In this document: piece by piece, positions 33,273 through 59,332 of the stretch
Layout: every line of letters begins with the position of its first letter
Numbering within the stretch: the stretch's first letter is position 1
From: Lentisphaerota bacterium
GTDB taxonomy: Bacteria; Verrucomicrobiota; Lentisphaeria; Victivallales; Victivallaceae
Assembly: GCA_015061615.1 (NCBI GenBank)
Contig: SUWE01000004.1
Span: 1 to 64,000 of the forward strand
DNA length: 64,000 nucleotides
Direction of reading: 5' to 3'
Notes under the pieces: model-generated
Told to the model about the DNA's origin: nothing
Databases searched by the model: none
Seen by the model: only the letters and a program-made list of their open reading frames with translations
Translations under genes and position numbers: made by a program

Positions 33273-33554
33273 ATGAAAAGAATTGCCAAAGTTATGATGA
33301 TCGCCGCCGTGATGATGATGGGAGCCGCCGTCTTTGCCGGACCGTGCAAAGCGCCGAAAAAAGTGAAACCGACATTTTTCGGCTGGATCTTCGGTAAGAG
33401 AGTTCCTCCCCGTCCGAGAGTCTGCCCGCCGCCGAAAAAGCCGGTGGTCCGCAAACCCGCTCACACAGTGAGAAAACCCGCTCACACAGCGAGAAAACCC
33501 GCTCACACAGTGAGAAAACCCGCTCCCGCACCTGTCCGTCACGGCAGATGGTAA
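33273..33554 (+). CDS. Small secreted, strongly basic repeat protein
   Basis: 93 residues. A signal peptide (MMIAAVMMMGAAVFAG) is followed by a Pro/Lys/Arg-rich mature part of about 70 residues. Its C-terminal half has the 7-residue repeat RKPAHT(V/A) three times, then RKPAPAPVRHGRW. The repeat DNA contains CTCACACAGTGAG-like palindromes. The charge suggests binding to LPS, DNA or another polyanion at the surface; nothing identifies a family. AACGAAAGGGTAGAAAA is the ribosome site. A terminator directly follows, so it is a monocistronic gene. Confidence 0.75.
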   Translation: MKRIAKVMMIAAVMMMGAAVFAGPCKAPKKVKPTFFGWIFGKRVPPRPRVCPPPKKPVVRKPAHTVRKPAHTARKPAHTVRKPAPAPVRHGRW

Positions 33555-33714: not shown

Positions 33715-34878
33715 TCAGAAGATTTTGCGCAAACGGTCAAGGGCAGGCTCAAGCAGAGCTTTGGGCATACCGACTGCCAGACGGAAATGGTGCTGTATTC
33801 CGGAGTATCCGGCAATATGCCATGTGTCGTAATAGTGGCCGGGATCGGCGGAAATTCCGGCATCGGCAAGTTTGCGGGCAAGGGTATCGGTATCCCAGTT
33901 CAATTTGGAGCAATCGACCCAGAGGAGAAACGATGCTTCCGGACGGCAGACGGCAACAGGCAGGTCTTTGAGATACTCCATTGCCATATCAATATTGCTG
34001 TTGAGGTATGAAATCATCTCATCGAGATATTTTTCACCGTATTTGTATGCGGCGGTCTGGGCGACAAGCGAAAACAAGGGCGGTCTGCCGCACTCATGAC
34101 CGTATTCATAGAGCAAAGAGCGTATCTTATCTTTGAGTTCTGCGTCGGCGATCACGGCGGAACCGATATGACAACCGCCGAGGTTGAAGGTTTTTGAGGC
34201 GGAAAATACGGTGATGACCCGTTCCGCCATACCGGGGAGCGACGCCAGCGGAATATGTTTGTTTCCGGGGTAGACAAGATCGCGGTGTATCTCATCGCAA
34301 ATAACGGTACAGTTGTACTTTTTCACAAGTTCGGCAAGCGGGGAAAGTTCTTCCATGCGCCAGACACGTCCGGTGGGATTGTGTGGAGCGCACATCATCA
34401 GCACCCTTGCACCGGAAGCAAAATGCTTTTCAATATCGTCAAGGTCAAGGGTGTAATTGCCGTCAGCGGTACGCTTCATCCACGATTCACAGGCGATACG
34501 CCCCTGCATGTACGCACTGCGGATGGATGGTGTGTGCAACGGCAGTATCACAACAACTTTATCTCCCGGCTGAGTAAGGGCGTACATGGAACAGCGCATA
34601 GTGTTCAAAACTCCGGGAGTGGCAAGCAGGTGTTCGCGGGGAATGGTGATGCCGTGACGGGATTTTACAAAGTCGATGACCGCCTGATAATCCTCATCGA
34701 CCATCATGGTGTAGCCGAAGTTTCCGTGTGCGGCGCGTTTTTGCAGAGCGTCAACGACCTCCGGCGGAGCGGCGAACTCCATATCGGCAATGGTCATGGG
34801 GAGGATATTTTCCGGCACGCCGAGATATTTGCATGCTCCGATGCCGCGGCGGTTTACAATTTTGTCGAAATCGTACAT
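33715..34878 (-). CDS. MalY/PatB-like PLP aminotransferase (C-S lyase)
   Basis: About 387 residues from ATG 34878 (AAAGGA is well placed; a TTG six bases earlier is also in frame). MTIADMEFAAPPEV near the N-terminus is typical of the MalY/PatB group. The PLP lysine is in SASKTFNLGG (about 230) and the substrate arginine is expected near the C-terminus. These fold-type I enzymes cleave cystathionine or cysteine conjugates to pyruvate, ammonia and a thiol. It begins two bases after the helicase stop and is the last gene of the long minus-strand run. Confidence 0.88.
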   Translation of the reverse strand: MYDFDKIVNRRGIGACKYLGVPENILPMTIADMEFAAPPEVVDALQKRAAHGNFGYTMMVDEDYQAVIDFVKSRHGITIPREHLLATPGVLNTMRCSMYALTQPGDKVVVILPLHTPSIRSAYMQGRIACESWMKRTADGNYTLDLDDIEKHFASGARVLMMCAPHNPTGRVWRMEELSPLAELVKKYNCTVICDEIHRDLVYPGNKHIPLASLPGMAERVITVFSASKTFNLGGCHIGSAVIADAELKDKIRSLLYEYGHECGRPPLFSLVAQTAAYKYGEKYLDEMISYLNSNIDMAMEYLKDLPVAVCRPEASFLLWVDCSKLNWDTDTLARKLADAGISADPGHYYDTWHIAGYSGIQHHFRLAVGMPKALLEPALDRLRKIF

Positions 34879-34880
34879 AC

Positions 34881-37800
34881 TCAAAATCCTTTCTGTTTCT
34901 TATACGGGGATAATTGTAAAAATAATTTGCGGTAAAACTCCGCATCAAAACGGTCACTGCCGATAAATGCTTCGGCGATATCCTGCTGGCGCTGTTGTCC
35001 CAGAGTCAGACGGTAGTGGGTCAGGAGCTTTTTCAACCGGGAAAAAGCCGCTATCGAGGAGCTGTACTTTATCAGCGGCACGAGACGTTCGATTTTCACC
35101 GGCTGATTTTCCCGCATACACCAGAATGGGGACATTTGAGAGTAATCACCGCAACAGGCGGCGGCTTCGCGTTCATCGGCATAGTCAAAAAGTTCTTTCC
35201 AGCTGCGGCATGTTTTATCAGCAGCCGCGACAAGACTTCTGCGGATGGCAAAACACTGAAAACGGTTGATACGTCCTTCACGCTGTTCAAGTTCGACCGG
35301 ATTGGCAGGCAGGTTCCAGTGCATGATCTTACGGCAGTAAGTGTGAAAATCCAACCCTTCCTGACCGACGGAGGTAGAGGCAAGCACGAAGGGGTAAAAC
35401 GGCGAATTGAATGCGGTACGCAAGCTCTCTTTGCGGTTGCCGGATTTGGCATCGGCACTGCTGCCTTTATCTCTGTTGAAACTGGCGGCGAAGTGAGACC
35501 GCATGGAAAATTTGTTCTCATGCCGGCTTTTATCCGCCGGATTTTCAATGCGTGAAGCAAACGCCGTCCGGGTATCGACATCGTAGACCGCGGTGGTGAA
35601 TTTCAGAACGGAAACAGCCGTTTCGACCATCGTCTGCCAATTTTCCGCCCCGATATCCGCCTGAAGGACAAAGAAATATTCGTCGAGCATCGCCTGAAAT
35701 CCGCCTTCGGCACAGTAACGCAAAAGTTTGAACTGATAACGGTCGATATCGTGATTTGTGCTGCAAACTGCTCCAACACTTTCCGGACGGCAGAATCTGG
35801 CGGCGAAGGCGGCGGCAAGCGCAAAAACGCCTTGAGAGATTTCTTTTTCATCTGATGCGTATTTCTGCAAAGTTCTTCTGGCGCACACCGCCGGAGAAGC
35901 CAGCGCCATATCGGTCAGAATATCAGGAAAGTCCTCACTCAGAGGAGTGCGGTTTTCACCGTTGTAAACCGCGCCATCCAATGCGGATAAAAGTTCTTCA
36001 AAAGATGAGTACTGCCCATTGCAATGTTGTGATATATTCTCAAAGACCCGTTGGCGGCAGACGGAATAATCTTCACATGTTCCCGAAGGGGTGAAACAGG
36101 CGGCAAGGAACTTGGAATCCCACAGGAGCAGGTTCAATTTGCCAGCCGCAACCCGTTTGCCGGGATAGCGTTCAACGCCATGTTTCACATTGTATGACAG
36201 GGCGGCGATGCCGCTTTTTTTGCGTTTTTTCCGCTTTTTATTGGCAATCTGCGCCTTTATCAATGTTCCGATGGAGCGCCGTTCAGCTTCGTATGAAGTG
36301 AGGACGGCGATCATGCGCGGAACCATCTCCCACGCGGAAAATATGAGGATTTTGGAAAAATCCTGCTGATTTTTGAAAACTCCCTGAAGTTCGTAATCCG
36401 GCTTTGACGGCGGAACCCAGAGCAGTTTTGATGAATCGCCGTTTTCACGGAACAGGATATCAAACAGCGCATCAAGTTTGGCGTTGCAGCGGGGAATTTC
36501 ACCGTAACGGCTGATATTTCCGGTATCGAGCCACGACCATTGGAGCTTTTTATTGCGGGCAAGGCGGGCGCACTCCGGATTTTTTGTAATATTTTCCTTG
36601 AGCTGATAATGCTCCATAAATGAGAGCAGAAAGGGGGCGCTTTTGACGTAATCCACCGGGAGATTTTCTGACAGCGGCGCAAGGATGGCGCTCATTTCCA
36701 GAAAAGAACATATATCACCGTAACCGGCATCAAGGAGCATTTCCGGCTCGTGGAGAAAATCTTTATCTCCGGAAATGAATCCGATGCGTTCAGTGCGGCA
36801 TATCCCGGAATCATAAAGTGCTTTTTCAGCGTTGTTTTTGCTCTCAAGAAGCGTTCCGGCAGATTTTTCCGGCGCATGGAGAAGTGCGGAGTAACTGCCC
36901 CAGACAGTTTGAAAATCTTCAAAACGCTCACTGCTGCCGCTGTGCAGAAATTTTACCACATCCTTAAATTCACGGTATTGATCCTCGCCGCTTGCTTCAG
37001 CTTCTTCAAGCGTGGAGTAAAGCTTGAAAGGCGTTGCCGATAAAAGCAGTACACGGGGGGAATTTTCCGCATCGCCCTGCAGAAAACGTTTGGCAAGTTC
37101 CGCCATATCCCCCTCACCGGACAATAATGTGCGGAAACGCTGAAACTCATCCATTATCACCAGGTCGGGAGCAAGTGATTCAGCGGAAAATGCGGCAAAA
37201 TGTTTGCGGAACTCAGTGAGCATTCTGCGCTGTCCGGAACCTGCGGGCAAAGCATTATCTGTCAGACAACGCTGAAAATCAGAAAAAATATCCGTCTTTG
37301 CGACCTTGTCAAGAAGCCGCTCCGGATAACCGCTGCCGGAAACTTTATCCACCCGTTTGCGGTAATATTCAACACTGTTATTCCAGCCGGTCTCCCCCAC
37401 GCCGTAACGGAAAAATTCTGAAATTTCACCGTGGAACTTCTCCTCAACAAGCCGTTGCAGCATTACAGCGGTCAATGCGCGCTCCTCCATGCACCCGGCA
37501 CTTTCTGTAAGCTGGAAACTTGTTCCGGGCGTAAGCGCAAGCATCTGGATAAACTGCTTTTTTTCAAGTGCCGCCGCCTCATCTTCAGCGATACGCAAAT
37601 GTTGCATGGATAAGCGCATTTCGCAGAGATTTCCCACTTGTTTCTGCTCAACAAGCTGAAGTTTGCGGATATTCTGGCGGGAAACGGTCTGATTTGAGCA
37701 GACGTAAACCACCTTGAAAAGATCATCCCCTTCATGAAAACGCATCCTTGCCGTTTCAGCGGTCACACTGCGGGCGATGATCGTTTTGCCCAGTCCGACC

Positions 37801-37958
37801 TCATCGGCGACCAGCACGCGGCGCTGACCGGATTTAAAAAGTTCACAAATACGGTCAACGGTCGCTTTCTGAAAATTTTTCAGCTTGCCGTAAGCTCCGG
37901 CACAGATATTGTCTAAAGTTTTTTCCACATTTTCACCGTATCCAAAAAGTTGCCGCAA
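34881..37958 (-). CDS. Swi2/Snf2-type DEAD/DEAH helicase of a DUF6361-PLD module
   Basis: 1025 residues. Motif I ADEVGLGKT (51-59), motif II MDEFQRF (about 270), motif III LLSATPF (about 305), then a helicase C domain with FVLASTSVGQEGLDF and motif VI EQREGRINRF (about 890). A long, less conserved region separates the two helicase halves (about 350-560). It should use ATP to move on or remodel nucleic acid. The start is uncertain: TTG at 37958 overlaps the PLD gene by 46 bases, and an in-frame GTG at 37928 is an alternative. Tight overlap with the PLD-like and DUF6361 genes suggests one complex or pathway. Confidence 0.85.
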   Translation of the reverse strand: MRQLFGYGENVEKTLDNICAGAYGKLKNFQKATVDRICELFKSGQRRVLVADEVGLGKTIIARSVTAETARMRFHEGDDLFKVVYVCSNQTVSRQNIRKLQLVEQKQVGNLCEMRLSMQHLRIAEDEAAALEKKQFIQMLALTPGTSFQLTESAGCMEERALTAVMLQRLVEEKFHGEISEFFRYGVGETGWNNSVEYYRKRVDKVSGSGYPERLLDKVAKTDIFSDFQRCLTDNALPAGSGQRRMLTEFRKHFAAFSAESLAPDLVIMDEFQRFRTLLSGEGDMAELAKRFLQGDAENSPRVLLLSATPFKLYSTLEEAEASGEDQYREFKDVVKFLHSGSSERFEDFQTVWGSYSALLHAPEKSAGTLLESKNNAEKALYDSGICRTERIGFISGDKDFLHEPEMLLDAGYGDICSFLEMSAILAPLSENLPVDYVKSAPFLLSFMEHYQLKENITKNPECARLARNKKLQWSWLDTGNISRYGEIPRCNAKLDALFDILFRENGDSSKLLWVPPSKPDYELQGVFKNQQDFSKILIFSAWEMVPRMIAVLTSYEAERRSIGTLIKAQIANKKRKKRKKSGIAALSYNVKHGVERYPGKRVAAGKLNLLLWDSKFLAACFTPSGTCEDYSVCRQRVFENISQHCNGQYSSFEELLSALDGAVYNGENRTPLSEDFPDILTDMALASPAVCARRTLQKYASDEKEISQGVFALAAAFAARFCRPESVGAVCSTNHDIDRYQFKLLRYCAEGGFQAMLDEYFFVLQADIGAENWQTMVETAVSVLKFTTAVYDVDTRTAFASRIENPADKSRHENKFSMRSHFAASFNRDKGSSADAKSGNRKESLRTAFNSPFYPFVLASTSVGQEGLDFHTYCRKIMHWNLPANPVELEQREGRINRFQCFAIRRSLVAAADKTCRSWKELFDYADEREAAACCGDYSQMSPFWCMRENQPVKIERLVPLIKYSSSIAAFSRLKKLLTHYRLTLGQQRQQDIAEAFIGSDRFDAEFYRKLFLQLSPYKKQKGF

Positions 37959-39745
37959 AATTGCAGAAGTTCATCAAGTCCATCGTGTTTTACAGGTGAG
38001 TTTTTCAATTCCCCGATCACTTTGCGCAGATCGGAAAGTTTATCCGGCTCCAGCGCCGCTGCACGCAAAAGCTGTTCATAAATGCCCGCACTTTTTTCAG
38101 CGGAAAACCGGTTACTGCCCGCTTCGGCGCAAGAAAATATATCCGTTTTCTGGCGCAGGGCAAACACCGCCTGATCGGGAGCTGAAGCGAACTCCAAAAA
38201 TGCCAGAAGTTTGCCTGCGGAGTCAAAAATTTTTGCCGAGACCGCGCAATCGCGTTCACTTGCAAAATCAGCGGCAGTTTTCAAGATCATCATCCGTTTG
38301 ACTTCGGCAGTGCCGTTGGAAAGAGTCAAAGCGTAAAAGTCGGAAAGTTTCTCAGGGGCAATAGCAGAAAAGCGCATTTTTTCCGACAGAGGAACAGCTT
38401 CCGCCGCTCCCAGATGGCGCAGTTCACAGCGGATACCGGGTAAATCCGGCGGGGGTTCAGAACTTGCCAATGTGACGGAAAATCTGCCGTCTGTACCTTT
38501 TTCAACACTTGTTTTGCAACGGTTCAAATAGTTTGCAACCGGACGGAAAAAGTTTTTCAACACATCTTCAGGTTGTTCATCTCCGGACAGTTCAACTTCT
38601 GTATGCAAGTTGAATGTTTCAAAACAGCTCTGTTCATCCTCAAGTTTCAAGCCGTCAATGACCGAAAAGAATACCGCATCACCGCGCGGACGGATTTTCA
38701 CCATAAGTTCCGTATTATGGAATTTGCCGTTTTCCGTAAGATTCATCGAACCGAGGTAAAAGTCATGCTGCACAACGTAAAATTTGGCGTGGATATCCGA
38801 AGGCAGATAAAACTCATCATCATCGCTTTGCACCCCGTGGACAGCATCGTCGCAAAGGTGATAAATTTCAAAATTCTTTTTACCGTCCTTTCCGTGAAAT
38901 TCCGGCGGAGCAAAGCCGTTAAAGGTTTTGGCAAGCTCATTTTTGCGGGAAACAAGCACCATTTTCGAGTAGTCTTTATCCGGCTTGAAGTACGAAGTGA
39001 ATACCTTCACCGCTTCAGGCGTAAGAAATGGCGATATGGCAAGCAGACGGGAAAATTTTTCACCTTCAGCTATCTTCTCTTTGCCGCCTTTCAAGGGAGC
39101 CGGGAGCTTTTCCCTTGCTTTTGAAGCCGGGTAAAGCGGAATAAAAAGCGTTTCATCATCATCGAGATTTTTTCCGGTAAAGCGCACACTGTCAAGTTCA
39201 GCGGCAAATCCGGCAAGTTTTTTTGGAGCAAGCCAGCGGAGAAAATCCCCCAGTTCCTTACCGTTGGCGCGTTCACTTTCAGCAGCGGAAGTGCCCTCAA
39301 AACTCACGCACATATCCCAGCTGCGGTCAAAAGCGAGATTGCGGCTCAAGAGTGCCGCGCGGTAAGAAAGAGTGGTGCTTTTTTTATCCTTGAAACGCAA
39401 AAGCCACATTTTGGGGTGAAAAGCTCCGCTTTCAGGGAATACCGGATAGATCATGCGGTCAAGCAGCGGGAAAAACGGGGAATCCTTTTCCGGCAGTTTC
39501 ACCGCACTGCTGTCGCAGAAAATCAGCACTTTGTCAATGATTTTGCGGATGGCGAAAAAGACCGATACCGGATTGTCGCGGCAGACACCGGACATTTCAC
39601 CGCCGAGCGCAAGCGGAACAAGCGCCGATATCAACGTCGGCAGATCGAGGGAATAGGTCGCTGCCACGGCAAGATCAAGCTCAAATCCGGCAGGGGGACG
39701 GAGTATGGATGAGTAATTTATCCGCTCTTTTTCAGGGTCGAACAT
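37913..39745 (-). CDS. Phospholipase D-like (two HKD motifs) protein
   Basis: About 610 residues from ATG 39745, with AAGGAG seven bases upstream. Two HKD-type motifs are visible: FHPKMWLL with SRNLAFDRSWD (about 110-145), and IHAKFYVV with LGSMNLTENGKFHNTE (about 325-355). This is the pattern of PLD-superfamily nucleases and phosphodiesterases, as in restriction or defence proteins, rather than lipid enzymes. No signal peptide. The C-terminal 200 residues are unassigned. It overlaps DUF6361 by 14 bases and the helicase by up to 46, so the three are translated together. Confidence 0.82.
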   Translation of the reverse strand: MFDPEKERINYSSILRPPAGFELDLAVAATYSLDLPTLISALVPLALGGEMSGVCRDNPVSVFFAIRKIIDKVLIFCDSSAVKLPEKDSPFFPLLDRMIYPVFPESGAFHPKMWLLRFKDKKSTTLSYRAALLSRNLAFDRSWDMCVSFEGTSAAESERANGKELGDFLRWLAPKKLAGFAAELDSVRFTGKNLDDDETLFIPLYPASKAREKLPAPLKGGKEKIAEGEKFSRLLAISPFLTPEAVKVFTSYFKPDKDYSKMVLVSRKNELAKTFNGFAPPEFHGKDGKKNFEIYHLCDDAVHGVQSDDDEFYLPSDIHAKFYVVQHDFYLGSMNLTENGKFHNTELMVKIRPRGDAVFFSVIDGLKLEDEQSCFETFNLHTEVELSGDEQPEDVLKNFFRPVANYLNRCKTSVEKGTDGRFSVTLASSEPPPDLPGIRCELRHLGAAEAVPLSEKMRFSAIAPEKLSDFYALTLSNGTAEVKRMMILKTAADFASERDCAVSAKIFDSAGKLLAFLEFASAPDQAVFALRQKTDIFSCAEAGSNRFSAEKSAGIYEQLLRAAALEPDKLSDLRKVIGELKNSPVKHDGLDELLQFCGNFLDTVKMWKKL

Positions 39746-40955
39746 CTTCAAGCTCCTTTACTCCCATATCTTTCAGCAAGGTACTGGCAACGCGGAAACG
39801 GAAAGAGAGTTTTTCGCCGGAAAACATCGTACCGCCGTTTTGAAAATCCTCACGGTGACAGAGTTTTGCCCGTTTTACCCCCTTGAGATACTTTTCACGG
39901 TCAGTAAGAAGTTCATCAAGGGCATACTCATCAAGTTTTTCCGCAAGAAAAAGCGTTTTCAGATCGTTGAGGAACTTTTCCGTCCGCTTTCTGCGGATAA
40001 GCGCCGCCGGGGATGCCGCAGGCAGGATTTTGAAAATCCCGTCGATATCAACTTTTTCCGCCCGCTGTTGAAAAGTCCCCTGCAATCCGCGCCATTCTTC
40101 AGCAGATTTTCTGCGTTGCAAAAGAAGATTGAAATATATCTGCGCAGGATAGATAAATTCCGCAAAACCGTTGGCAAGCTGCCACAATTTTTCCAGTTCC
40201 GCGCCCAGCGGCAGACGGTTGGCGTACTTAAACTCTCCAGGCAGACCGTTTTCAAGCATGGTGCAAAGAAGAGTGCCGCTGAACTTTTCTCTTATCTGCT
40301 GACGGAAAAATGATTTTTCTTCTTCACTCAAAGCCGGAGTGGGGGATTTCTGCCAGTTCTCCGGTTGCAAAAGCTGCCAGTGCCAGAATTTTTCTTCTGC
40401 ATCATTGCGGTCGCAATCCTCATCTTCATCGCCTTTCTGACGGATATAACCGTTATCGGCAGATGATTCCGTTTCAAGGATGCGGATAAATTCCGCAAGG
40501 GAAATACCTTTTTTGCTCTCATCAAACCGGATGAAACCGAACTGCTTTATACCACTCCAGTAGACCTCTGACGGCGGGCGCCTGACCCATGATTTATTGT
40601 CGGAATCAAAGAAACGGGTACCGAAAATACCCTCTTTATCTTCGTCAGAGGTATTTTTATAAAGCGCTTTTGAGTAATCTTTTTCGATCGTGTAAAGTTT
40701 TGATGCAAAATTTTTACGGTCGGTGTTTTCAAAAACCTCTCTGAGCGCATAACATACGGCAAAAAAGTACTTTGCCCGCGTCTGGATGGTCGAAGTTCCG
40801 GGGAAAAATCTGTCGGCAAAAGCACTCTGGATAACTCCGAGACCAAGTTCATCGACCGCCCCCTGTTCCCGAAGTGCGTTGATGATATCGGCGGCAAGCC
40901 GGGAGTCTTCGCGGGAAAAATCGACCCATCCGAAAGGATAATCTCTTTCAGCCAT
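39732..40955 (-). CDS. DUF6361-family protein
   Basis: About 407 residues from ATG 40955, which has GGAGGG a few bases upstream; the longer GTG form is less likely. The N-terminus has WVDFSREDSR, then VDELGLGVIQSAFADRFFPG and STIQTRAKYFF, the pattern I know for DUF6361. No catalytic motif is evident and the rest is charged and helical. The family is of unknown function and is often next to PLD-like and helicase genes, as here. It follows the phosphotyrosine phosphatase gene by 20 bases, so it lacks its own promoter space. Confidence 0.75.
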   Translation of the reverse strand: MAERDYPFGWVDFSREDSRLAADIINALREQGAVDELGLGVIQSAFADRFFPGTSTIQTRAKYFFAVCYALREVFENTDRKNFASKLYTIEKDYSKALYKNTSDEDKEGIFGTRFFDSDNKSWVRRPPSEVYWSGIKQFGFIRFDESKKGISLAEFIRILETESSADNGYIRQKGDEDEDCDRNDAEEKFWHWQLLQPENWQKSPTPALSEEEKSFFRQQIREKFSGTLLCTMLENGLPGEFKYANRLPLGAELEKLWQLANGFAEFIYPAQIYFNLLLQRRKSAEEWRGLQGTFQQRAEKVDIDGIFKILPAASPAALIRRKRTEKFLNDLKTLFLAEKLDEYALDELLTDREKYLKGVKRAKLCHREDFQNGGTMFSGEKLSFRFRVASTLLKDMGVKELEDVRP

Positions 40956-40975
40956 ACACCCTCCGCCCACCGGAC

Positions 40976-41431
40976 TCAGCAGATATCAAGAGTATCGAAA
41001 AACGCCGTCAGACCGCGGTGGATATCACTCCAGGTGCCGTCGAAATTTCCGCAGTACCACGGATCGGCAACGTCACCGGGAGCAGAAGTAAAATCAAGAA
41101 GTTTGTACATCTTGTTATCTTTATCGCCGCCGCAGATGCGCTGCATGTTGCGCATGTTGGAAGAATCCATACAGATAAGGTAATCGAAATACTCATAATC
41201 TTTCACACTCATTTTGCGTGCGTATTTGCCGCGGCAGTCGATACCGTGTTCAGCAAGCACTCTCCTTGCCGGAGGATAAACGGGATTGCCCAGCTCTTCA
41301 CTGCTGACGGCGGCAGATTCGATCTCAAACTTATCCGCGACACCGGCTTTCTGCACCATATCTTTGAACATGAATTCCGCCATCGGACTGCGGCAGATGT
41401 TGCCGTGACAGACAAAGAGAACTTTGATCAT
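40976..41431 (-). CDS. Low-molecular-weight protein-tyrosine phosphatase
   Basis: About 151 residues from ATG 41431 (GGGAGG ten bases upstream; a TTG nine bases earlier is also in frame). VLFVCHGNICRSPMAEF has the C-X5-R phosphate loop, and DPWYCGNF near the C-terminus has the general-acid Asp. LMW-PTPs dephosphorylate tyrosine on proteins, often the tyrosine kinases that control exopolysaccharide export, or arsenate. No kinase is visible here. It starts five bases after the upstream esterase stop. Confidence 0.9.
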   Translation of the reverse strand: MIKVLFVCHGNICRSPMAEFMFKDMVQKAGVADKFEIESAAVSSEELGNPVYPPARRVLAEHGIDCRGKYARKMSVKDYEYFDYLICMDSSNMRNMQRICGGDKDNKMYKLLDFTSAPGDVADPWYCGNFDGTWSDIHRGLTAFFDTLDIC

Positions 41432-41436
41432 GAAAT

Positions 41437-43407
41437 TCAAACCTCCCGGCGCATGAAGTTATCTACGAAATTCACCACTTCGCACTTATCTCCCAGCGCC
41501 GCATACATATCCGGCAGATCGGTGTATTTCAATATTCCCCGCATCATCAGCGCCGCCGGGAAGAGAGTAACTCTTTCCCGTGCCATTTTATCGAAGGATT
41601 CCGGAGCATCAAAGAGCTTGACCGATCGGATGTCATCGCAGAGTATCGCCGCAAATATCGCCGCCACTGCCCCCTGACCTCTGCCGATAAGGCGTATCGC
41701 GGAAGCGTTGCGGCTTTTGGCAATGGCAACGGCGCTGAGAATATCCCGTACCCGCGCCGCAAGGGTGGAGGAACCGAAAAGTATCTCACAGGAGTTGTAG
41801 TGATAATCTTCACCGTAAAGGTAAAAAAAGTCATCCATCAGATCGACATCGCAGTTGTTGCTTCTTGCCGCGCCGATACCGCGCACATCGACACCGCAGA
41901 GAATACGCTCCGAAGAGAAAAGGGGCAGTTCATCCGCCGAAGAAAGGTGGGGGATATAAAGGTCGATCTCCTGATTTTCCGGGAAATAATGGCGGCAGTC
42001 TGTCGGTTCCGGCATCTTCAGCCAGAGCGGCACGATCAATCCTTTTTCACACTCCATGCCGAAGCGGGAGTAAATGAACATGGGCAAAGAACCCTGTTCC
42101 TGATAATACGCCATGCGCAACGCCCGCAAATAAGGTTCCGGCATGGAAAGAGGCAGATCATATTTTTCCGCAAGCAGTTTTTTCAACTCCTCCCGGCTGA
42201 GTTTTTTTCTTCCGGCGGCCAAGGTGTCGATTTTTTCCACAATGAAATCGTGGAGCAGTTTTTTTCCTGCAAGTTCAGCAACTTTGCCGTTGGCAGTACA
42301 GGAAAAATCTTTTACCGTAATATCCGATATATCCGCTTCGCTTTCCGCAGTTGCCTTTGGAGCGGATAATCCGGCATGGGTGTTGAAGAAATCATACATC
42401 GCACAGCGGTTTTCAACGGAGTAACCGTGATTGGTTGGGCCGATGAAAAGCTGAAGATTCTCTTCCACACCCAGAAGTTTGTAGACTTTGCGGCATTCAG
42501 CAAAGGTCTCTTTCAAACCTCTGGGGTCGAAGAAATCATTTCTCTGACCGAGCAGAATGACCGGGCGCGGCGCATAGGCAAGCACAAGGTCGCCCATTTC
42601 ACACCCGGCGGCAAGGATACCGGGGATCATCTGTTCGACATCGGCGGGCAGTTCATTTTCAATATTGCGCTGCCAGCTGGTGACGTAACAGCTTGGCGCA
42701 GCCATCGTAAAACGGGGATCAAGCGCCTGAACGAAGGTGGTCATCGTGCCGCCGCCGGAATTGCCGGTGATACCGACTCTTGAGGTATCGACTTCAGGAC
42801 GGGAAAGCAGATAATCCAGCGCACTCAAGGCATCATGCGCCCGCCATGAGCCGAAAAATTCATCCGCCAGCCAGAGCTGTTTACCCAGCATATTGTGTTC
42901 AATGACACAACTGCCGCTGACGCGCCATGCGCCTTTTACTCCGTCGAACTGGTAACGCTCACCCTGACCGGCAGGGTCGACCACCAGCACGGCAAATCCG
43001 CGCATTGCCAGAGTTGCGGCACCGGCAGCGTAAGCACCGGCGGCTTTGCCCTCCTGAGCGTGTCCGCAAAGGAAAAGCACCGCCGGGAGCTGAGCAGAAA
43101 ACTCTTCCGGCAAATAAAAATTGACCGTTACCGGGTAATCTTTTCTGCTCTCGATAATAAGTTTTTCAATGGAAAATCCTTTGTGCTTCACCACTCCGCA
43201 AAGGGTGGAAACCGGAACTGTTTTACGCTCAGGCAAAGCGAAGGCAGCGGCGATTTTTTCCCGCACACAGTTCACATATTTTTCCGCATCTTCGCGGGTT
43301 TTCAAATCGGCGATGCGGGCGGAACGCTCCAGATTGACTTTACGGACTTTATTCACATAATATTCATTGAGCAGAGAACCGTATACTCCGTTGTAACTCG
43401 CTTTCAT
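41437..43407 (-). CDS. Large alpha/beta-hydrolase, acetyl-xylan-esterase-like, tandem domains
   Basis: 656 residues, no signal peptide. The N-terminal half is an intact hydrolase: LFLCGHAQEGK (oxyanion loop, about 110), TGNSGGGTM (nucleophile Ser, about 215), DFFDPRG (acid, about 290) and TNHGYS (His, about 325). The C-terminal half (about 400-650) resembles a second hydrolase fold, but its elbow reads GRGQGAV, with no Ser, so it is probably inactive. The substrate is unknown; carbohydrate or peptide esters are possible. GAGGT precedes the start. It lies ten bases after the CdsA/polyprenol-kinase-like gene. Confidence 0.75.
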   Translation of the reverse strand: MKASYNGVYGSLLNEYYVNKVRKVNLERSARIADLKTREDAEKYVNCVREKIAAAFALPERKTVPVSTLCGVVKHKGFSIEKLIIESRKDYPVTVNFYLPEEFSAQLPAVLFLCGHAQEGKAAGAYAAGAATLAMRGFAVLVVDPAGQGERYQFDGVKGAWRVSGSCVIEHNMLGKQLWLADEFFGSWRAHDALSALDYLLSRPEVDTSRVGITGNSGGGTMTTFVQALDPRFTMAAPSCYVTSWQRNIENELPADVEQMIPGILAAGCEMGDLVLAYAPRPVILLGQRNDFFDPRGLKETFAECRKVYKLLGVEENLQLFIGPTNHGYSVENRCAMYDFFNTHAGLSAPKATAESEADISDITVKDFSCTANGKVAELAGKKLLHDFIVEKIDTLAAGRKKLSREELKKLLAEKYDLPLSMPEPYLRALRMAYYQEQGSLPMFIYSRFGMECEKGLIVPLWLKMPEPTDCRHYFPENQEIDLYIPHLSSADELPLFSSERILCGVDVRGIGAARSNNCDVDLMDDFFYLYGEDYHYNSCEILFGSSTLAARVRDILSAVAIAKSRNASAIRLIGRGQGAVAAIFAAILCDDIRSVKLFDAPESFDKMARERVTLFPAALMMRGILKYTDLPDMYAALGDKCEVVNFVDNFMRREV

Positions 43408-43417
43408 AGTAAAGACC

Positions 43418-44161
43418 TCATTTTATGGAATTGGAAAGGTTGTCAAATATTTTTTCTGCGGTCGAAGATACCTCATCGACGGCTTTTTCCATTTTGCTTT
43501 CAGGTGTCTGCATACAAGGCAGAAGCGAAGCTGCGAAAAGCACCGCTCCGATGCAGAGGGGAATGGAGAAGTTGTCATCAAGTTTGAGCTGTTTTTCAAA
43601 AAGCTCAACCAAAGCGGCAAGAAGTACCGCCGGAATACCGGCAAGATAGTAACCGCCCGGCGCTCCGGCAATCGCCAGAACCGCCGCCAGAGCGCCATAA
43701 CCGACGATGACAAAGGCGATCACCCCTTCCCACGATTTATTGTTGGGAGCTTTGTGTCTGCCGAATTTTCTGCCGACCAGTGCCGCCGCCGCATCAGCGG
43801 TGAGCATCACCGCCAGAGACGGAGCGGCGATCATCGGGACAAAGAGCAGATTCACCAGAAGTGCCGCCGCCAAAACGAAAGCGCCGCCGGAAACTATCCA
43901 CATTCCCGGATGGACCTCTTTGCGGAGCATTTTACCGAAAAGGATTCCGTAAAGTCTGCCCAGATAACGCCCGTTGTTCGCATAATCGTGTTCAGAAAAG
44001 AGTGTCAGCAGTAAAAGCGCGGCAAAAACTCCGCAGGATATCCAGCGGCCGTACTCCGGAAAGAAATAAGGGAAAAGCAGTGTTGCCGCCACCATCCACA
44101 GTGACGAAAGGTGGACACATTTGCGTTTGACTTCTTCAAGATAGCTTATTTCGATGCTCAT
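43418..44161 (-). CDS. CDP-diglyceride synthase / polyprenol kinase-like membrane protein
   Basis: 247 residues with about six to seven hydrophobic segments. TADAAAALVGRKFGRHKAPN and KSWEG (about 120-145) match the signature shared by phosphatidate cytidylyltransferases and the dolichol/phytol kinase group. The length and the N-terminal RKCVHLSS fit the kinase-like group (Sec59/VTE5) better than CdsA. Such enzymes phosphorylate a lipid alcohol or make CDP-diacylglycerol in the inner membrane. AAAAGGAAAATAAATC is the ribosome site. Confidence 0.75.
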   Translation of the reverse strand: MSIEISYLEEVKRKCVHLSSLWMVAATLLFPYFFPEYGRWISCGVFAALLLLTLFSEHDYANNGRYLGRLYGILFGKMLRKEVHPGMWIVSGGAFVLAAALLVNLLFVPMIAAPSLAVMLTADAAAALVGRKFGRHKAPNNKSWEGVIAFVIVGYGALAAVLAIAGAPGGYYLAGIPAVLLAALVELFEKQLKLDDNFSIPLCIGAVLFAASLLPCMQTPESKMEKAVDEVSSTAEKIFDNLSNSIK

Positions 44162-44217
44162 GATTTATTTTCCTTTTTATTAATTATCTTCATATTTGCA
44201 GATGGATAAAGCCGGTA

Positions 44218-45327
44218 TCACCGCTCATATTTATCCATCTCTGCTTTGAAATTTCTGTAAGTTTCTGCTATTTCTGTCTTCAGCCGGTTGAAAGCGGCGA
44301 TCTTCATGCGGAGCTTTTTCTTCGGACCGCGTTTTTTCCCTTTGCGTTTGATGACCGGTGTACGCGACGGCCATTTATCAGCTTTTATCAGGCGCACACG
44401 TTCCACGATGCGAAACGTTCTGAGCATTTTCCAATCCATCAACCCCTCATGCAAAGCCTGTCTTGCCGCGGGATTGCGTTTGAACTTGATGCGGTATCCG
44501 CCGGGAACAACATCCGCCTCACTCTCATCGGGAATATTCGGGGATATGCCGCGCATGTGTTCCAGAAGATTCAGCGGACGGGTTTTCGGCAGACGTGAGG
44601 GACGGTAAAAACGCTGAACATCGACAACGACTCCGTAGATAAGATTTTCCTCCTTCTGCACCAGCATCGGATTGGTCGTACCGCCTTCGTAAAGGGTATG
44701 AAAAAGCATACTCGCAGTAAAAACGAAACGGCGCACGGTGATATGATTTGTTCCGGGTATACGGCAAACCACCATATCCCCCTCTCCGGGACGCAGATTG
44801 GATACCGCCGCGATGCGGTCACCCTTGCAGATACCGTCATTGACCATGCAGTTATCGGGCATTATCATGCCGAAATAGAAGAAATATTCACCGTAGAGAA
44901 AATCGGCGGAAACGAAAAATTTTTCCCGGTTTCTGACTTTGCGCCACTCATTGTTTCGCGCAAAAATCTCCTCCTGAGTCAGCACCGGAACTGTTACAAC
45001 GCGGCGGTCTTTATTGACTTTACGCTCAAGCAAATGCTGGAACTTCTGATTTTCAGCGATCTCTTTGAGCGTCATACGCTGCCACGGCGGAGCGGAAAAA
45101 TCCATCTTTTTCCGGATGCCGAGACCGCGGAGAAATGCCTCGCGGGAACGGACTTTTTTCCGGTGGAGTATACGCACTTTCCGGTGGTAGAGAAAATAGC
45201 CGAGAGTTATCAGACTCTTTTTTCTTCCCCGTTTTTTGCGTATTTTGATTTTCGGGTCACGCTCAAGCCGCCGGAGATACTCCGGAACCATGCTTGCCTG
45301 TTGTGTGATAAAAGGTTCTCTGTTCAA
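44218..45327 (-). CDS. LexA/S24-like protein with replaced catalytic dyad, basic tails
   Basis: 369 residues. The middle (about 130-245) follows the LexA C-terminal pattern: MIMPDNCMVNDGICKGDRIA where LexA has GDSM then GI..GD, GEGDMVVCRI, ITVRRFV where LexA has TVKR, and IYGVVVDVQRF. The catalytic Ser thus reads Cys and the Lys reads Arg. The N-terminus (KIRKKRGRKKS) and C-terminus (KRKGKKRGPKKKLRMK) are very basic, suggesting nucleic-acid contact. I see no clear HTH. The start is TTG, overlapping the upstream stop as TTGA, with GGAG ten bases before; ATG 45291 is an alternative. Function unknown. Confidence 0.6.
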   Translation of the reverse strand: MNREPFITQQASMVPEYLRRLERDPKIKIRKKRGRKKSLITLGYFLYHRKVRILHRKKVRSREAFLRGLGIRKKMDFSAPPWQRMTLKEIAENQKFQHLLERKVNKDRRVVTVPVLTQEEIFARNNEWRKVRNREKFFVSADFLYGEYFFYFGMIMPDNCMVNDGICKGDRIAAVSNLRPGEGDMVVCRIPGTNHITVRRFVFTASMLFHTLYEGGTTNPMLVQKEENLIYGVVVDVQRFYRPSRLPKTRPLNLLEHMRGISPNIPDESEADVVPGGYRIKFKRNPAARQALHEGLMDWKMLRTFRIVERVRLIKADKWPSRTPVIKRKGKKRGPKKKLRMKIAAFNRLKTEIAETYRNFKAEMDKYER

Positions 45328-45806
45328 AATAACTTGACTCCGAATCCGTTGATTGCCGGTGCTTTATCCTTTTCGCAATGCACCCTCACAAAATAGACGA
45401 CTTCAAACTTCTCCTTCGCGGCATCTTTGCCTTTTTCAAAGCTCAGAGCCCACAGATAGCTGTGGAGCTTTCCGGTGACCAGTCTGCCGAGATAAGCGGC
45501 GGAAGAAAAGCCGCCGAAAGTATTGATAAGCTCGCTGCGCATTGCATCAAACTTTTTCTGATCGATATTGGCGCGTCTGTCAGCGGGGATAAACGTTTCC
45601 CAATACCCGTAATTTCCGGTTTCAAGCGCTTTGATGAAACCGCCGGCAAAATTTGCCGCGATACTCTTTGCCGCCGCCTCGTTTTCCGCAGAGATCTCCT
45701 GAAAATCCGGTGTCGCCTTCCCCTCTTTGTTTCCGGTCGTGGAGCATGACGGGATAAAGATCAGCAGCACCGCCGCCAACGCGGCAAAATCACGTTTGTT
45801 CATCAT
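45324..45806 (-). CDS. Small uncharacterised lipoprotein
   Basis: About 160 residues from ATG 45806 (GAGGTG seven bases upstream). The signal peptide MMNKRDFAALAAVLLIFIPS is followed by Cys, a lipobox-like site, so it is likely lipid-anchored. The mature domain (about 45-160) has a helix, FAGGFIKALETGNYGYW, and beta strands, resembling NTF2-like or DUF4019/DUF3887-type small folds, though I cannot name it. Its start overlaps the fpg stop in ATGATGA and its stop overlaps the next start, so expression is coupled on both sides. Confidence 0.7.
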   Translation of the reverse strand: MMNKRDFAALAAVLLIFIPSCSTTGNKEGKATPDFQEISAENEAAAKSIAANFAGGFIKALETGNYGYWETFIPADRRANIDQKKFDAMRSELINTFGGFSSAAYLGRLVTGKLHSYLWALSFEKGKDAAKEKFEVVYFVRVHCEKDKAPAINGFGVKLF

Positions 45807-46624
45807 TTTTGACACCTCGGACAATAAAAACTCGACCTGCCGCCCTGGCGGACAGTTTCCACAACAGCAGAGCAGACCGGACAAAGTTCACCTGCTTTAC
45901 CGTAAATTTTAAGATTCTGAGCAAATTTGCCTTCACTGCCGTCGACATGGCGGAAGTCGGAAATGGTCGTTCCGCCGGATTCGATCGCTTCAAGCAATAT
46001 TTTTTTAGCATTTTTCACAATGGACTCCGCCTCTTTTAACGTAAGCTCCCTGCCGGATCTGCGCGGATCGACCCCGGCGGCAAAAAGCGTTTCAGCGGCG
46101 TAGATATTGCCGATACCGGTTACGATGGAGTTATCCATAAGCAGAAGTTTCACCGGAGCGGAACGTTTTGAACAGCACTCAAAAAACTTTTTTCCGGTGA
46201 ACTCAAGTGACAGCGGCTCCATTCCCAGTCCGGCAAGCGGAGCAGGTATGCCGTTTTCATCCGGGGTGTGGACTTCAAGCAGACTGAAACGTCTGGTACA
46301 CTCAAAGCGGAAAATGTTCCCGTCATCAAGGTGGATAAAGACATGTTCATGCTTGCGTCTGGGAACTCCGGAACTTTCTATACGGACAACACCGGACATG
46401 CCGAAGTGCATAAGCAGTATACGCTTATCTGAAAGATCAGCCATCAGATAGCGGCCGCGCCGTCTGACTCCGGCAAAGCGCAATCCTTCAAGTCCGGCAT
46501 CAAGCAGAGGCGTAAGGGGAGTACGCATGGCGGGGGAAAAAACTTCCACCTGCGTTATCACTCTTTCTTTCAAAGCCCGGTCAAGGGCTCTGCCGATAGT
46601 TTCTGCTTCGGGTAATTCCGGCAT
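45803..46624 (-). CDS. mutM: Formamidopyrimidine-DNA glycosylase (Fpg/MutM)
   Basis: 273 residues, the standard length. After the initiator Met, PELPEAETIG supplies the catalytic Pro1 and Glu2. VRRRGRYLM (about 55) holds the family basic patch. The C-terminus has a zinc finger, CPVC...CPRC. The enzyme removes 8-oxoguanine and ring-opened purines and nicks the DNA. It is the first gene of the long minus-strand operon and has a promoter 41-69 bases upstream, divergent from that of lpxK. Confidence 0.95.
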   Translation of the reverse strand: MPELPEAETIGRALDRALKERVITQVEVFSPAMRTPLTPLLDAGLEGLRFAGVRRRGRYLMADLSDKRILLMHFGMSGVVRIESSGVPRRKHEHVFIHLDDGNIFRFECTRRFSLLEVHTPDENGIPAPLAGLGMEPLSLEFTGKKFFECCSKRSAPVKLLLMDNSIVTGIGNIYAAETLFAAGVDPRRSGRELTLKEAESIVKNAKKILLEAIESGGTTISDFRHVDGSEGKFAQNLKIYGKAGELCPVCSAVVETVRQGGRSSFYCPRCQK

Positions 46625-46664
46625 ATTTCATACTTTCCATGCAAAAAAACATACTTCTGCAAAT

Positions 46665-46693
46665 AATGTAACACCGTTTGTGTAAAAAATCAA
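46665..46693 (-). promoter_or_regulatory. Promoter of the fpg operon
   Basis: Minus-strand TTGATT (46693-46688), 17 bases, TACATT (46670-46665). Only nine bases separate its -35 box from that of the divergent lpxK promoter. Confidence 0.65.
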
Positions 46694-46702
46694 CCAAAAA
46701 CC

Positions 46703-46731
46703 TTGCATGAAACATAAAACAGCACTATATT
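46703..46731 (+). promoter_or_regulatory. Promoter of the lpxK unit
   Basis: TTGCAT (46703-46708), 17 bases, TATATT (46726-46731), 23 bases before the start codon. Confidence 0.8.
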
Positions 46732-46754
46732 ATATGTAATAACGGGAGTTGACA

Positions 46755-47927
46755 ATGCACAAATTCAAATTTGATACCGAACATCTGGAACAGTATTTTC
46801 TGGAAGTTATGTCCGGCAGACGGCGGCGCTGGTTCGATCTGGCGTTGGTGAATCTGCTTTTTGTATCATCCCGTTTTTACCGCATGGCGGTACAGTTCCG
46901 TGTCTGGATGTACGATAAAAGAGTCATCCGCAATCACGCTCTGGGCTGTCTGGTGGTCAGCATCGGCAACCTCACCTGCGGCGGAACCGGTAAAACTCCG
47001 GTGGTGGAGGTCTTTGCCCGCACTCTGTCAGAAAACGGCAGAAAAGTCGCCATTTTGAGCCGGGGTTACCGGAGCAAAAAACGTACATTCCGCGAAAAAC
47101 TTGCCCACTTCTTCCGGAAGGGAAAGATAGAATCACCGCCCAAAGTCGTTTCCGACGGCAAAGATCTGCTGCTGAACTCCGAATATGCCGGTGATGAGCC
47201 GTACATGCTTGCTTCAAATCTGCCGGAAGTGGCGGTGGTCGTGGATAAAGACCGTGTTAAATCCGGGATTTACGCCATCGACAATTTTCAAAGCGACGTG
47301 ATAATCCTCGATGACGGATTCCAGTATCTCATGCTCAAACCGCATATCAACATTGTGCTTGTGGACTCCACCGACCCCTTCGGCAACGGTCACGTTCTGC
47401 CGCGCGGAGTTCTGCGTGAACCGATAAAAAATATCCGGCGGGCAGATTACATTTTTCTGACCAAATCCGACGGAAGCCACAAACTTGAACACCTCAAACG
47501 TTTCATCCGCCGCCACACCCGCCGCGCGGAGATCATCGAATGCTGTCACAAACCGCAGAATCTGGTGACGCTTGAAAGCAAGGTAGTTCATCCGCTTTCA
47601 AAACTCAAAGGTGCCAAAGTGGCGGCACTTTCCGCCATTGCCCGTCCGGAAAGTTTTGAGAAATTCCTTGAAGACTTCGGTGCGGAACTCGTTCTCAAAG
47701 ATCACTTTGCCGACCATCACCGCTACACGCAGCAGGAGATAATCGACTTTGTCAATCAGGCAAAAGCCGCCGGTGCGGAAATGATAATGACCACGGAAAA
47801 AGATGCCGTGCGCATACCCAGACTTGACCGCTGCGATGTGCCGATACTCTATTTGAGGATACAGATCGATATTTTGAGCGGTCAGGAAAGTTTCAATCAG
47901 TGTATTTCAAGAATTTGTTTTATGTAA
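46755..47927 (+). CDS. lpxK: Tetraacyldisaccharide 4'-kinase LpxK
   Basis: About 390 residues from ATG 46755 (GGGAG six bases upstream; a TTG six bases earlier is possible). An N-terminal amphipathic/hydrophobic helix precedes the P-loop [14 protein letters not shown] (about 77-90). ILSRGYRSK, the DDGFQ motif (about 196), [10 protein letters not shown] (about 215) and TTEKDAVR (about 355) are LpxK hallmarks. It phosphorylates the lipid A disaccharide at the 4' position at the inner membrane, so this organism makes LPS. The insert with basic residues at 110-140 is slightly long. Confidence 0.95.
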
Positions 47928-49181: not shown

Positions 49182-50462
49182 ATGAAAACAATAAATGAAA
49201 ATCTGCGGATAGCCATTATCGGCATGGGATATGTCGGCCTGCCGCTGGCAATAGAGTTCGGCAAAAAATTTGCCGCAACCGGATTCGATATCAAAAGTGA
49301 CAGACTGGAAAAACTCCGCGCCGGTATCGACGTTACCTGCGAAACGACTCCGGAGGAACTTGCCGCCGCCAAAAAACTCTCTTTCACCGGCGACGAAAAC
49401 GACCTTGCCGGATGCGACGTCTTTATCGTCACCGTCCCGACTCCGGTGGATAAGTACAAACGCCCTGACCTGACTCCGCTCTACCGTGCCAGTGAGACCG
49501 TCGGACGCGCAATGAAACCGGGAGCAGTGGTCATTTACGAAAGTACCGTTTATCCCGGATGCACCGAAGAAGAGTGCGTACCTGTTCTGGAAAAATTCAG
49601 CGGCTTGAAGTTCAATAAAGATTTCTTCTGCGGCTACTCTCCGGAGCGGATAAATCCCGGCGACAAAACCCACAGTCTGCTCAATACGGTGAAAATCACC
49701 TCCGGTTCCACTCCTGAAGCGGCGAAGTTTGTCGATGATCTTTACAACTCGATACTCACTGCGGGGACTCATCCGGCAAGTTCCATAAAAGTTGCCGAAG
49801 CGGCGAAGGTCATAGAAAACTCCCAGCGCGACATAAATATCGCCTTTGTCAACGAACTGGCAAAAATATTCCACCTTATCGGCATCGACACCGCCGAAGT
49901 CCTTGAAGCGGCAGGAACCAAGTGGAACTTTCTCAAATTCCGTCCCGGTCTTGTCGGCGGTCACTGCATCGGTGTTGACCCCTATTACCTGACCCACAAG
50001 GCGCAATCTCTGGGATATCACCCCGAAGTTATCCTTGCCGGCAGACGCATCAACGATGAAATGGGCAGATACACCGCAACCGAAATCGTCAAAATGATGA
50101 TAAAAAAAGGATTGACGGTCCTCGATGCCAATATCCTTCAGCTCGGAATAACTTTCAAGGAAAATTGTCCGGACTGCCGCAACTCACGCGCTGTCGATGT
50201 CGTGGAAAATCTGAAGGAGTTCGGCTGCAAAGTCGATATCTTCGACCCCTGGGCAGCTCCGGAAGATATTGAAAAAGAGTACGGTTTATCCGCCTTTTCC
50301 AACGCTGAACAGCTTGCAGGTAAAAAATACGACGTCATCGTACTGGCAGTATCTCACAAAGAGTTTTTCACTTTGGATATCAAAAGTTTGCGCAAACAAC
50401 GCTCGATCGTTTTCGATATAAAATCCGTTCTTCCCGAAGATGAGATCGACGCACGGCTGTGA
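49182..50462 (+). CDS. UDP-N-acetylhexosamine/UDP-sugar 6-dehydrogenase (TviB/WbpO-like)
   Basis: 426 residues. NAD-binding IIGMGYVGLPLA near the N-terminus, FIVTVPTPVDKYKRPDL (about 87) and ESTVYPGCTEE (about 120) are typical of the TviB/WbpO/VipA group. The catalytic Cys is in GGHCIGVDPYYL (about 260), and a C-terminal domain follows. These enzymes oxidise C6 of UDP-GlcNAc or UDP-GalNAc to the uronic acid in two steps. It opens the surface-polysaccharide run and has its own promoter. Confidence 0.88.
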   Translation: MKTINENLRIAIIGMGYVGLPLAIEFGKKFAATGFDIKSDRLEKLRAGIDVTCETTPEELAAAKKLSFTGDENDLAGCDVFIVTVPTPVDKYKRPDLTPLYRASETVGRAMKPGAVVIYESTVYPGCTEEECVPVLEKFSGLKFNKDFFCGYSPERINPGDKTHSLLNTVKITSGSTPEAAKFVDDLYNSILTAGTHPASSIKVAEAAKVIENSQRDINIAFVNELAKIFHLIGIDTAEVLEAAGTKWNFLKFRPGLVGGHCIGVDPYYLTHKAQSLGYHPEVILAGRRINDEMGRYTATEIVKMMIKKGLTVLDANILQLGITFKENCPDCRNSRAVDVVENLKEFGCKVDIFDPWAAPEDIEKEYGLSAFSNAEQLAGKKYDVIVLAVSHKEFFTLDIKSLRKQRSIVFDIKSVLPEDEIDARL

Positions 50463-50478
50463 AAGGAAAAGTGTTCAG

Positions 50479-51288
50479 ATGAAAAATCCCGGCGACATTC
50501 CACTGATGATACTCTGCGGCGGCAAAGGAACCCGTCTGCGTGATGTGACCGAACTGCTCCCCAAACCGATGGTCGCCATCGGAGAACAGCCCATTGTCTG
50601 GCATATCATGAAAAGTTATGCCGCATTCGGCGTGCGCCGTTTCATCCTCTGTCTGGGATACAAACGCGAAGCATTCGTCGATTACTTCATGAATTATCAT
50701 CTGCGCACTTCCGATGCGACCATCCGTCTCGGTCACACGCCGGAAATCACCTTTCACGGGGAATCCGACGAGGCGGACTGGGAAGTGACACTGGCTTATA
50801 CCGGTGAAGAATCCATGACCGGTTACCGCGTTTTCAAGGCGTCAAGATATCTCAAAGATGATGATGAAAACTTCTTCCTCACCTATGGTGACGGAGTAAG
50901 CGACGTCAATATCGACAAACTTTACAAAAGCCACCTGAAAAACAACAACACCGTTACCGTAACTGCCGTCCATCCCGAAGCGCGTTTCGGTCAGATGCTG
51001 CTTGACGGCGATCAGGTGAACAGTTTTGATGAAAAGCCGCCGCGCGGCGAAGGATATATCAACGGCGGATTCATGGTGATGAAAAAAGAGTTCGTTTCAG
51101 AATATCTTGCCGCTGATGAAAACCTCTTTCTGGAAAGGACTCCGCTCCGCGGAGCCGCCTCAGACGGGAAAATGGGTGTTTACCGCCACGAGGGATTTTG
51201 GCAGTGCATGGACAATCAGCGTGAATACATTCTGCTCAATGAGTTGTGGAACAAACGCAAAGCTCCGTGGACAAAATATTGGAAATAA
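50479..51288 (+). CDS. rfbF: Glucose-1-phosphate cytidylyltransferase
   Basis: About 269 residues from ATG 50479 (AAGGA 11 bases upstream). LCGGKGTRLRDVTELLPKPM at the N-terminus is the nucleotidyltransferase signature with RfbF spacing. YGDGVSDVNI (about 136) carries the metal Asp, and NGGFMVMKKE (about 195) follows. It makes CDP-glucose from CTP and glucose-1-phosphate, the first step toward CDP-3,6-dideoxyhexoses. The genes for the next two steps follow directly (gap six bases, then overlap). Confidence 0.93.
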   Translation: MKNPGDIPLMILCGGKGTRLRDVTELLPKPMVAIGEQPIVWHIMKSYAAFGVRRFILCLGYKREAFVDYFMNYHLRTSDATIRLGHTPEITFHGESDEADWEVTLAYTGEESMTGYRVFKASRYLKDDDENFFLTYGDGVSDVNIDKLYKSHLKNNNTVTVTAVHPEARFGQMLLDGDQVNSFDEKPPRGEGYINGGFMVMKKEFVSEYLAADENLFLERTPLRGAASDGKMGVYRHEGFWQCMDNQREYILLNELWNKRKAPWTKYWK

Positions 51289-51294
51289 TCAATC

Positions 51295-53708: not shown

Positions 53709-53732
53709 AAAAAGTATTTGCAGTGCTATATT
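53705..53732 (+). promoter_or_regulatory. Promoter overlapping the rfbH stop codon
   Basis: TTGAAA (53705-53710), 16 bases, TATATT (53727-53732). The -35 box contains the rfbH stop codon. It would drive the A/T-rich neuB-like block starting at 53779. Confidence 0.7.
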
Positions 53733-53778
53733 ACCCATGAATAAAGATAATTTTCCGTAAAAAAGGAAGTGGAATAAA

Positions 53779-57095: not shown

Positions 57096-57099
57096 ATTG

Positions 57100-58227: not shown

Positions 58228-58245
58228 AAAACAAATGAGGTTAAT

Positions 58246-59313: not shown

Positions 59314-59332
59314 TATTTCCGGTATCAAAAAT

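Follow-up and report, generated by a model that had tools for sequence, protein, structure and literature searches.

Three long ORFs lie on the minus strand of the window (the whole 64,000-nucleotide stretch of DNA analyzed here), where the ORF listing shows them overlapping one another across positions 34881 to 40955. The first, zacA (39732..40955, minus strand), encodes a predicted all-helical DUF6361 protein, as indicated by the PADLOC ZacA model, Pfam DUF6361, and an AF2 model. The second, zacB (37913..39745, minus strand), encodes a predicted bi-lobed protein of the PLD superfamily with two HxK motifs, a probable nuclease according to the PADLOC ZacB model, the NucT profile, and Foldseek. 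The third, zacC (34881..37958, minus strand), encodes an SF2 (SNF2/RapA-like) helicase-type ATPase recognized by the PADLOC ZacC model and by a Helicase_C match above the cut-off.

The zacA ORF (39732-40970, 412 aa) is open up to a GTG at 40970, and the zacB ORF extends from 37913 to 39751. Because ribosome-binding sites precede them, we favor the ATG at 40955, with GGAGG upstream, for zacA and the ATG at 39745, behind AAAGGAG, as the probable start of zacB. The zacC ORF (34881-37958) starts with a TTG at 37958, and a GTG at 37928 is a possible alternative. Counted from the two ATG starts, zacA and zacB overlap by 14 bases; zacB and zacC overlap by 46 bases with the TTG start or 16 with the GTG start. 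The ORFs and their start sites confirm the initial annotation, which described three genes overlapping by 14 and up to 46 bases and placed the end of the trio at 40955, the position of the probable zacA ATG behind GGAGG. None of the three ORFs is broken, and ZacB and ZacC retain every catalytic residue. The GC content of the trio is 0.475–0.497, compared with 0.489 for the window, and thus shows no compositional mark of transfer.

Assignment of the trio to Azaca

The PADLOC ZacA model matches the DUF6361 protein with an E-value of 1.3e-76 over residues 13-402 of 412, and the ZacB model matches the PLD protein (1.3e-104, residues 3-597). The ZacC model matches the helicase at 2.5e-257, scoring 855 bits against 81 bits for the best other PADLOC model. 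The genes are adjacent on one strand in the order A-B-C, which is the Azaca arrangement, and the gene set is complete: ZacA, ZacB with its HxK motifs, and ZacC with its ATPase motifs. From these sequence comparisons, the trio is almost certainly a complete and intact Azaca system (ZacA-ZacB-ZacC). It had been proposed as an undescribed system that no named one would fit, a proposal to be given up if the trio already bore a name. It does: all three Zac models of PADLOC-DB match it in the order A-B-C, and the trio is a divergent, fresh copy of Azaca. Its interpretation as a defense system is supported by this identity.

From the common naming, we take ZacA and ZacB to be Azaca proteins. One later paper counts Azaca among those systems described by Millman et al. 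2022 and credits it with a PLD-like domain (PMC10952713); another gives ZacC as its SF1/SF2 helicase (PMC12278908), and a third names Azaca too (PMC10121019). These papers attribute the anti-phage protection by Azaca to Millman et al. 2022 (PMC10952713, PMC12278908, PMC10121019). We found no mention of DUF6361 in the open-access literature searched, which may be why the trio could not be placed at first.

The window copy shares with Azaca all three genes, their order, their overlap, and their domain content, with near full-length profile matches. It differs in its divergence, the nearest ZacC, ZacA, and ZacB found being 43%, 39%, and 30% identical, respectively, and in the replacement of R48-D49 of ZacA by Q-S. 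At conserved positions, ZacA, ZacB, and ZacC of the window depart from the consensus 4, 4, and 8 times, compared with 0, 1, and 3 times in the median member; the change of R48-D49 is one of these departures in ZacA. Judged from its sequence, the window copy is likely, but not certain, to be functional. The question of a name is settled, and the known copies gain a divergent one whose empty site is clear.

Pfam places DEAD, ResIII, and Helicase_C on ZacC above their cut-offs; its two RecA halves are separated by about 450 residues. Walker A (DEVGLGKT, residues 52-59; 37782..37805, minus strand) is 93–99% conserved among 85 sequences and motif II (DEFQ, residues 270-273; 37140..37151, minus strand) 100% conserved. 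On the same strand follow a conserved SATP (residues 307-310), TSxGQEGLD (residues 862-870), and motif VI (QREGRINR, residues 892-899; 35262..35285), seven of whose eight residues are 94–99% conserved. These motifs bear out the early description of an ATPase with helicase motifs and indicate that ZacC is an SF2 motor. Its nearest named relatives by profile matches are DrmD, DpdE, BrxH, and RapA.

The combination of an SNF2-like helicase and a PLD protein is shared with DISARM. If the trio were an incomplete or aberrant DISARM, the helicase would be DrmD and the PLD protein DrmC, and weak matches of 68.9 and 12.2 bits, respectively, point that way. However, the curated NCBIfam equivalog cut-offs, 610 bits for DrmD and 133 bits for DrmC, lie far above these scores, and the Zac models score far higher. 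Moreover, the trio comes without DrmB/DUF1998 and without a DNA methyltransferase: the assembly, which is 85% complete, contains no DUF1998/MZB (DrmB) match, the neighboring genes scanned include no DNA methyltransferase, and a single methyltransferase was found in the window, the C-methyltransferase of a sugar cluster. An incomplete or aberrant DISARM is therefore extremely improbable, and the initial annotation was right to set it aside for want of the DUF1998 gene and the methyltransferase. Dpd also combines a helicase (DpdE) with a PLD protein (DpdK), and the local similarity to these two proteins is weak. We rejected it, as the scores obtained, 62.8 bits for DpdE against a cut-off of 500 and 17.5 for DpdK against 100, are far too low. 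Mokosh likewise associates a PLD-like domain with helicases in an anti-phage system (PMC10952713; MkoA and MkoC being the helicases, PMC12278908), but of the 25 top-scoring PADLOC models listed for ZacC none is from Mokosh, nor is any of those listed for the PLD protein.

Insertion site, distribution, and joint evolution

Upstream of the trio and in the same direction, an AXE1-like esterase and a LMW phosphatase gene (40976..43407, minus strand) form a pair that does not belong to the system and delimits the insertion on its upstream side, as shown by synteny in loci L049-L056. In these eight congeners, the pair is kept with no trio behind it, an empty site; in four of the eight, further genes are conserved up to fpg and lpxK. 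The genes behind the esterase-phosphatase pair vary between genomes, and the site behind the phosphatase may be an insertion hotspot. Downstream, a class I/II aminotransferase gene (33715..34884, minus strand) lies outside the system. Its orthologues in two congeners, G001 and G020 (75% and 68%), are located away from Zac or LMW phosphatase genes. Neither this gene nor the phosphatase or esterase was retained as a fourth constant gene of the system, as their orthologues lie elsewhere or stay in place without the trio. The phosphatase gene and the trio behind it are 20 bases apart, and 2 bases lie between the end of the trio and the probable aminotransferase ATG; because of these short gaps on one strand, co-transcription with the flanking genes is likely.

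Other features of the window were recorded. The block 40976-47927, conserved in several congeners, comprises the esterase, the LMW phosphatase, a CTP-transferase-like gene, two uncharacterized genes, fpg, and lpxK. Two adjoining proteins encoded at 44218-45884 have no Pfam match at E 0.001 and are about 40% conserved in congeners. A small ORF at 33273-33554 (93 aa) opens with a signal-like segment and contains tandem copies of the peptide VRKPAHT; its reverse frames are open too. A glycan-degrading cluster (2887-29084) encodes GH123-like proteins, two of them with laminin-G, together with GH38, GH92, an acetyl xylan esterase, CBM9, and a sodium:solute symporter. The sugar biosynthesis cluster at 49182-61212 (NeuB, DegT aminotransferase, TPP enzyme, C-methyltransferase, radical SAM, epimerases) is probably a nonulosonic acid or branched-sugar pathway.

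ZacC was detected at 1e-60 or better in 4 of the 289 genomes of the phylum, including that of the window, and in none of 14 control genomes. A strong, full ZacB match was found in one of 33 other genomes of the genus, within a very divergent trio (congener G024). Four relatives gave weak hits with the PADLOC ZacB model; these cover the second HxK half only and were taken as other PLD proteins. Homologues of ZacC are present on 56 plasmid records, and in pESA3 an integrase gene immediately precedes the DUF6361-PLD-helicase genes. The trio is thus patchy, and the initial annotation's caution that the genes might be single-copy housekeeping ones does not apply. A housekeeping DNA-repair operon would account for a helicase beside a candidate nuclease, with a Fpg glycosylase gene 5 kb away, but most congeners lack the trio, as do 285 of the 289 genomes of the phylum, and homologues are plasmid-borne, which leaves this reading next to no likelihood. 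Acquisition by horizontal transfer, with insertion downstream of an esterase/phosphatase pair conserved in the genus, is the best explanation of these sequence comparisons.

In the tree, L060, from another genus of the same family, stands closest to the window copy, although the long branch of the window makes its exact placement unsure. The trio of G024, a second A-B-C set (L033:4640-10582) whose ZacC is about 28–32% identical to that of the window, lies far away. Because the nearest relative belongs to another genus whereas the trio of a congener is distant, the genus seems, tentatively, to have acquired Azaca on more than one occasion. Among 114 genes neighboring Azaca at 16 loci, the commonest families, by raw, uncontrolled frequency, include type I restriction (R-M), Mrr, cytosine (C5) methylase, and WYL. 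No other defense gene was found among the neighboring genes scanned beside the window copy. Peptide patterns of the window ZacC, which probe for close relatives only, had no match in IMG/VR. One unannotated, "unverified" fecal phage scaffold carries a trio and may be bacterial DNA.

A ZacC scan of 84,980 species genomes yielded 248 relatives, 80 of whose loci were examined; adding four loci of the phylum to which the window belongs gives a comparison set of 84 other loci. The phyla of the examined loci include Bacillota, Bacteroidota, Actinomycetota, Methanobacteriota, Fibrobacterota, Kiritimatiellota, and Cloacimonadota. This gene-neighbor survey, a check proposed in the initial annotation, found the DUF6361, PLD, and helicase genes together and in the order A-B-C in every locus with enough DNA. 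The exceptions to a full A-B-C set are due to contig ends or to genes split in two. The zacB of Caloramator australicus (L070:6197-7965) and the zacC of Bacillus marasmi (L139:7989-11206) each consist of two ORFs, reflecting a broken copy or a sequencing error. With longest-ORF starts, zacA and zacB overlap in 63 of 71 loci and zacB and zacC in 55 of 71. As homologous trios occur in more than 70 genomes, their association goes beyond chance. The pairwise distances of ZacA, ZacB, and ZacC are correlated (r of 0.918, 0.896, and 0.935; permutation maxima below 0.19), indicating that the three proteins evolve as a unit. This is plain evidence that the three Azaca genes travel and diverge together.

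Predicted roles of the Zac proteins

Both HxK motifs of ZacB, H112-P-K114 (39410..39418, minus strand) and H321-A-K323 (38783..38791, minus strand), are invariant in an alignment of 72 sequences, and a GSxN (38741-38752, minus strand) follows the second. In neither half does the classical HxKx4D have its aspartate at the usual position, so the double HKD noted at the outset is correct with this reservation. The Pfam PLDc_2 match (1.4e-4) is below its cut-off. The confident structure model (pLDDT 89) predicts a bi-lobed PLD fold, which Foldseek places closest to PLD, the PLD3/PLD4 exonucleases, and Tdp1 (1e-9 to 1e-7); the list also contains phosphatidylserine synthase and polyphosphate kinase. 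By profile, ZacB comes closest, among solved sequences, to NucT and to two restriction endonucleases of the PLD type (2c1l, R.NgoVII). Because of these profile and fold matches, nuclease is the most likely activity of ZacB, with DNA as a putative substrate.

Lipids, polyphosphate, and Tyr-DNA links are further substrates within the PLD superfamily. ZacB could accordingly be a cell-killing effector of Azaca acting on membrane lipid, RNA, or the host chromosome by abortive infection, as the lipid enzymes of the superfamily and the matches of its fold to phospholipase D and phosphatidylserine synthase would allow. We regard this as unlikely, though far from negligible, since the sequence profile leads to nucleases and ZacB is partnered by a helicase-type motor. 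In DISARM, DrmC is dispensable (PMC9142583), and by this precedent ZacC might itself clear or stall phage DNA replication, the PLD protein being only accessory. The presence of the PLD gene in every Azaca locus with enough DNA and the invariant HxK residues give such a translocase-led block only a slim chance.

In Hachiman (HamA-HamB), the nuclease HamA is first held in check and later freed by the helicase HamB (PMC12278908). This system would be a functional analogue of Azaca, pairing a sensing helicase with the nuclease that it releases, but it has two genes and a Ski2-like helicase, and its nuclease is of the D-E(X)K rather than the PLD type. It is by analogy with HamB and HamA that ZacC may license ZacB while ZacA couples or restrains them. 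ZacC would bind foreign or abnormal DNA, such as ends, forks, or single-stranded stretches of replicating phage, and hydrolyze ATP while moving along it. This movement would release or deliver the PLD active site of ZacB, which both HxK halves may build jointly and which would cut DNA independently of metal. ZacA, the helical partner, would hold the complex together or keep it in check, sparing the host chromosome until infection. As a whole, the mechanism in which ZacC senses or moves on abnormal DNA, ZacB cuts, and ZacA couples or restrains is reasonably probable. The division of labor first suggested, with the helicase as sensor, the PLD protein as nuclease, and DUF6361 as adaptor, is likewise a sensible candidate model. 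We found no report of an activity of the Zac proteins in open-access papers.

The residual interest of the trio lies in the mechanism of Azaca as a whole and in the role of ZacA, which matches Pfam DUF6361 at 9.4e-18. Its AF2 model is a confident all-helical fold (pLDDT 87), for which neither sequence nor fold searches returned a convincing PDB relative; the 53 matches of the fold search, with a best E of 2.0, are all meaningless. The helical fold of ZacA might be new and so might its role, for example as a phage-state sensor gating the helicase-PLD nuclease, and the branch of the window and L060 might be a divergent subtype with altered gating, R48-D49 being lost in the window ZacA; that both hold is rather doubtful. 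Along with this model without PDB relatives, the residues D40, E41, G43, P57, S60, Y68, G117, Y137, L214, F333, E359, K363, and R391, invariant in the ZacA alignment, provide targets for mutation.
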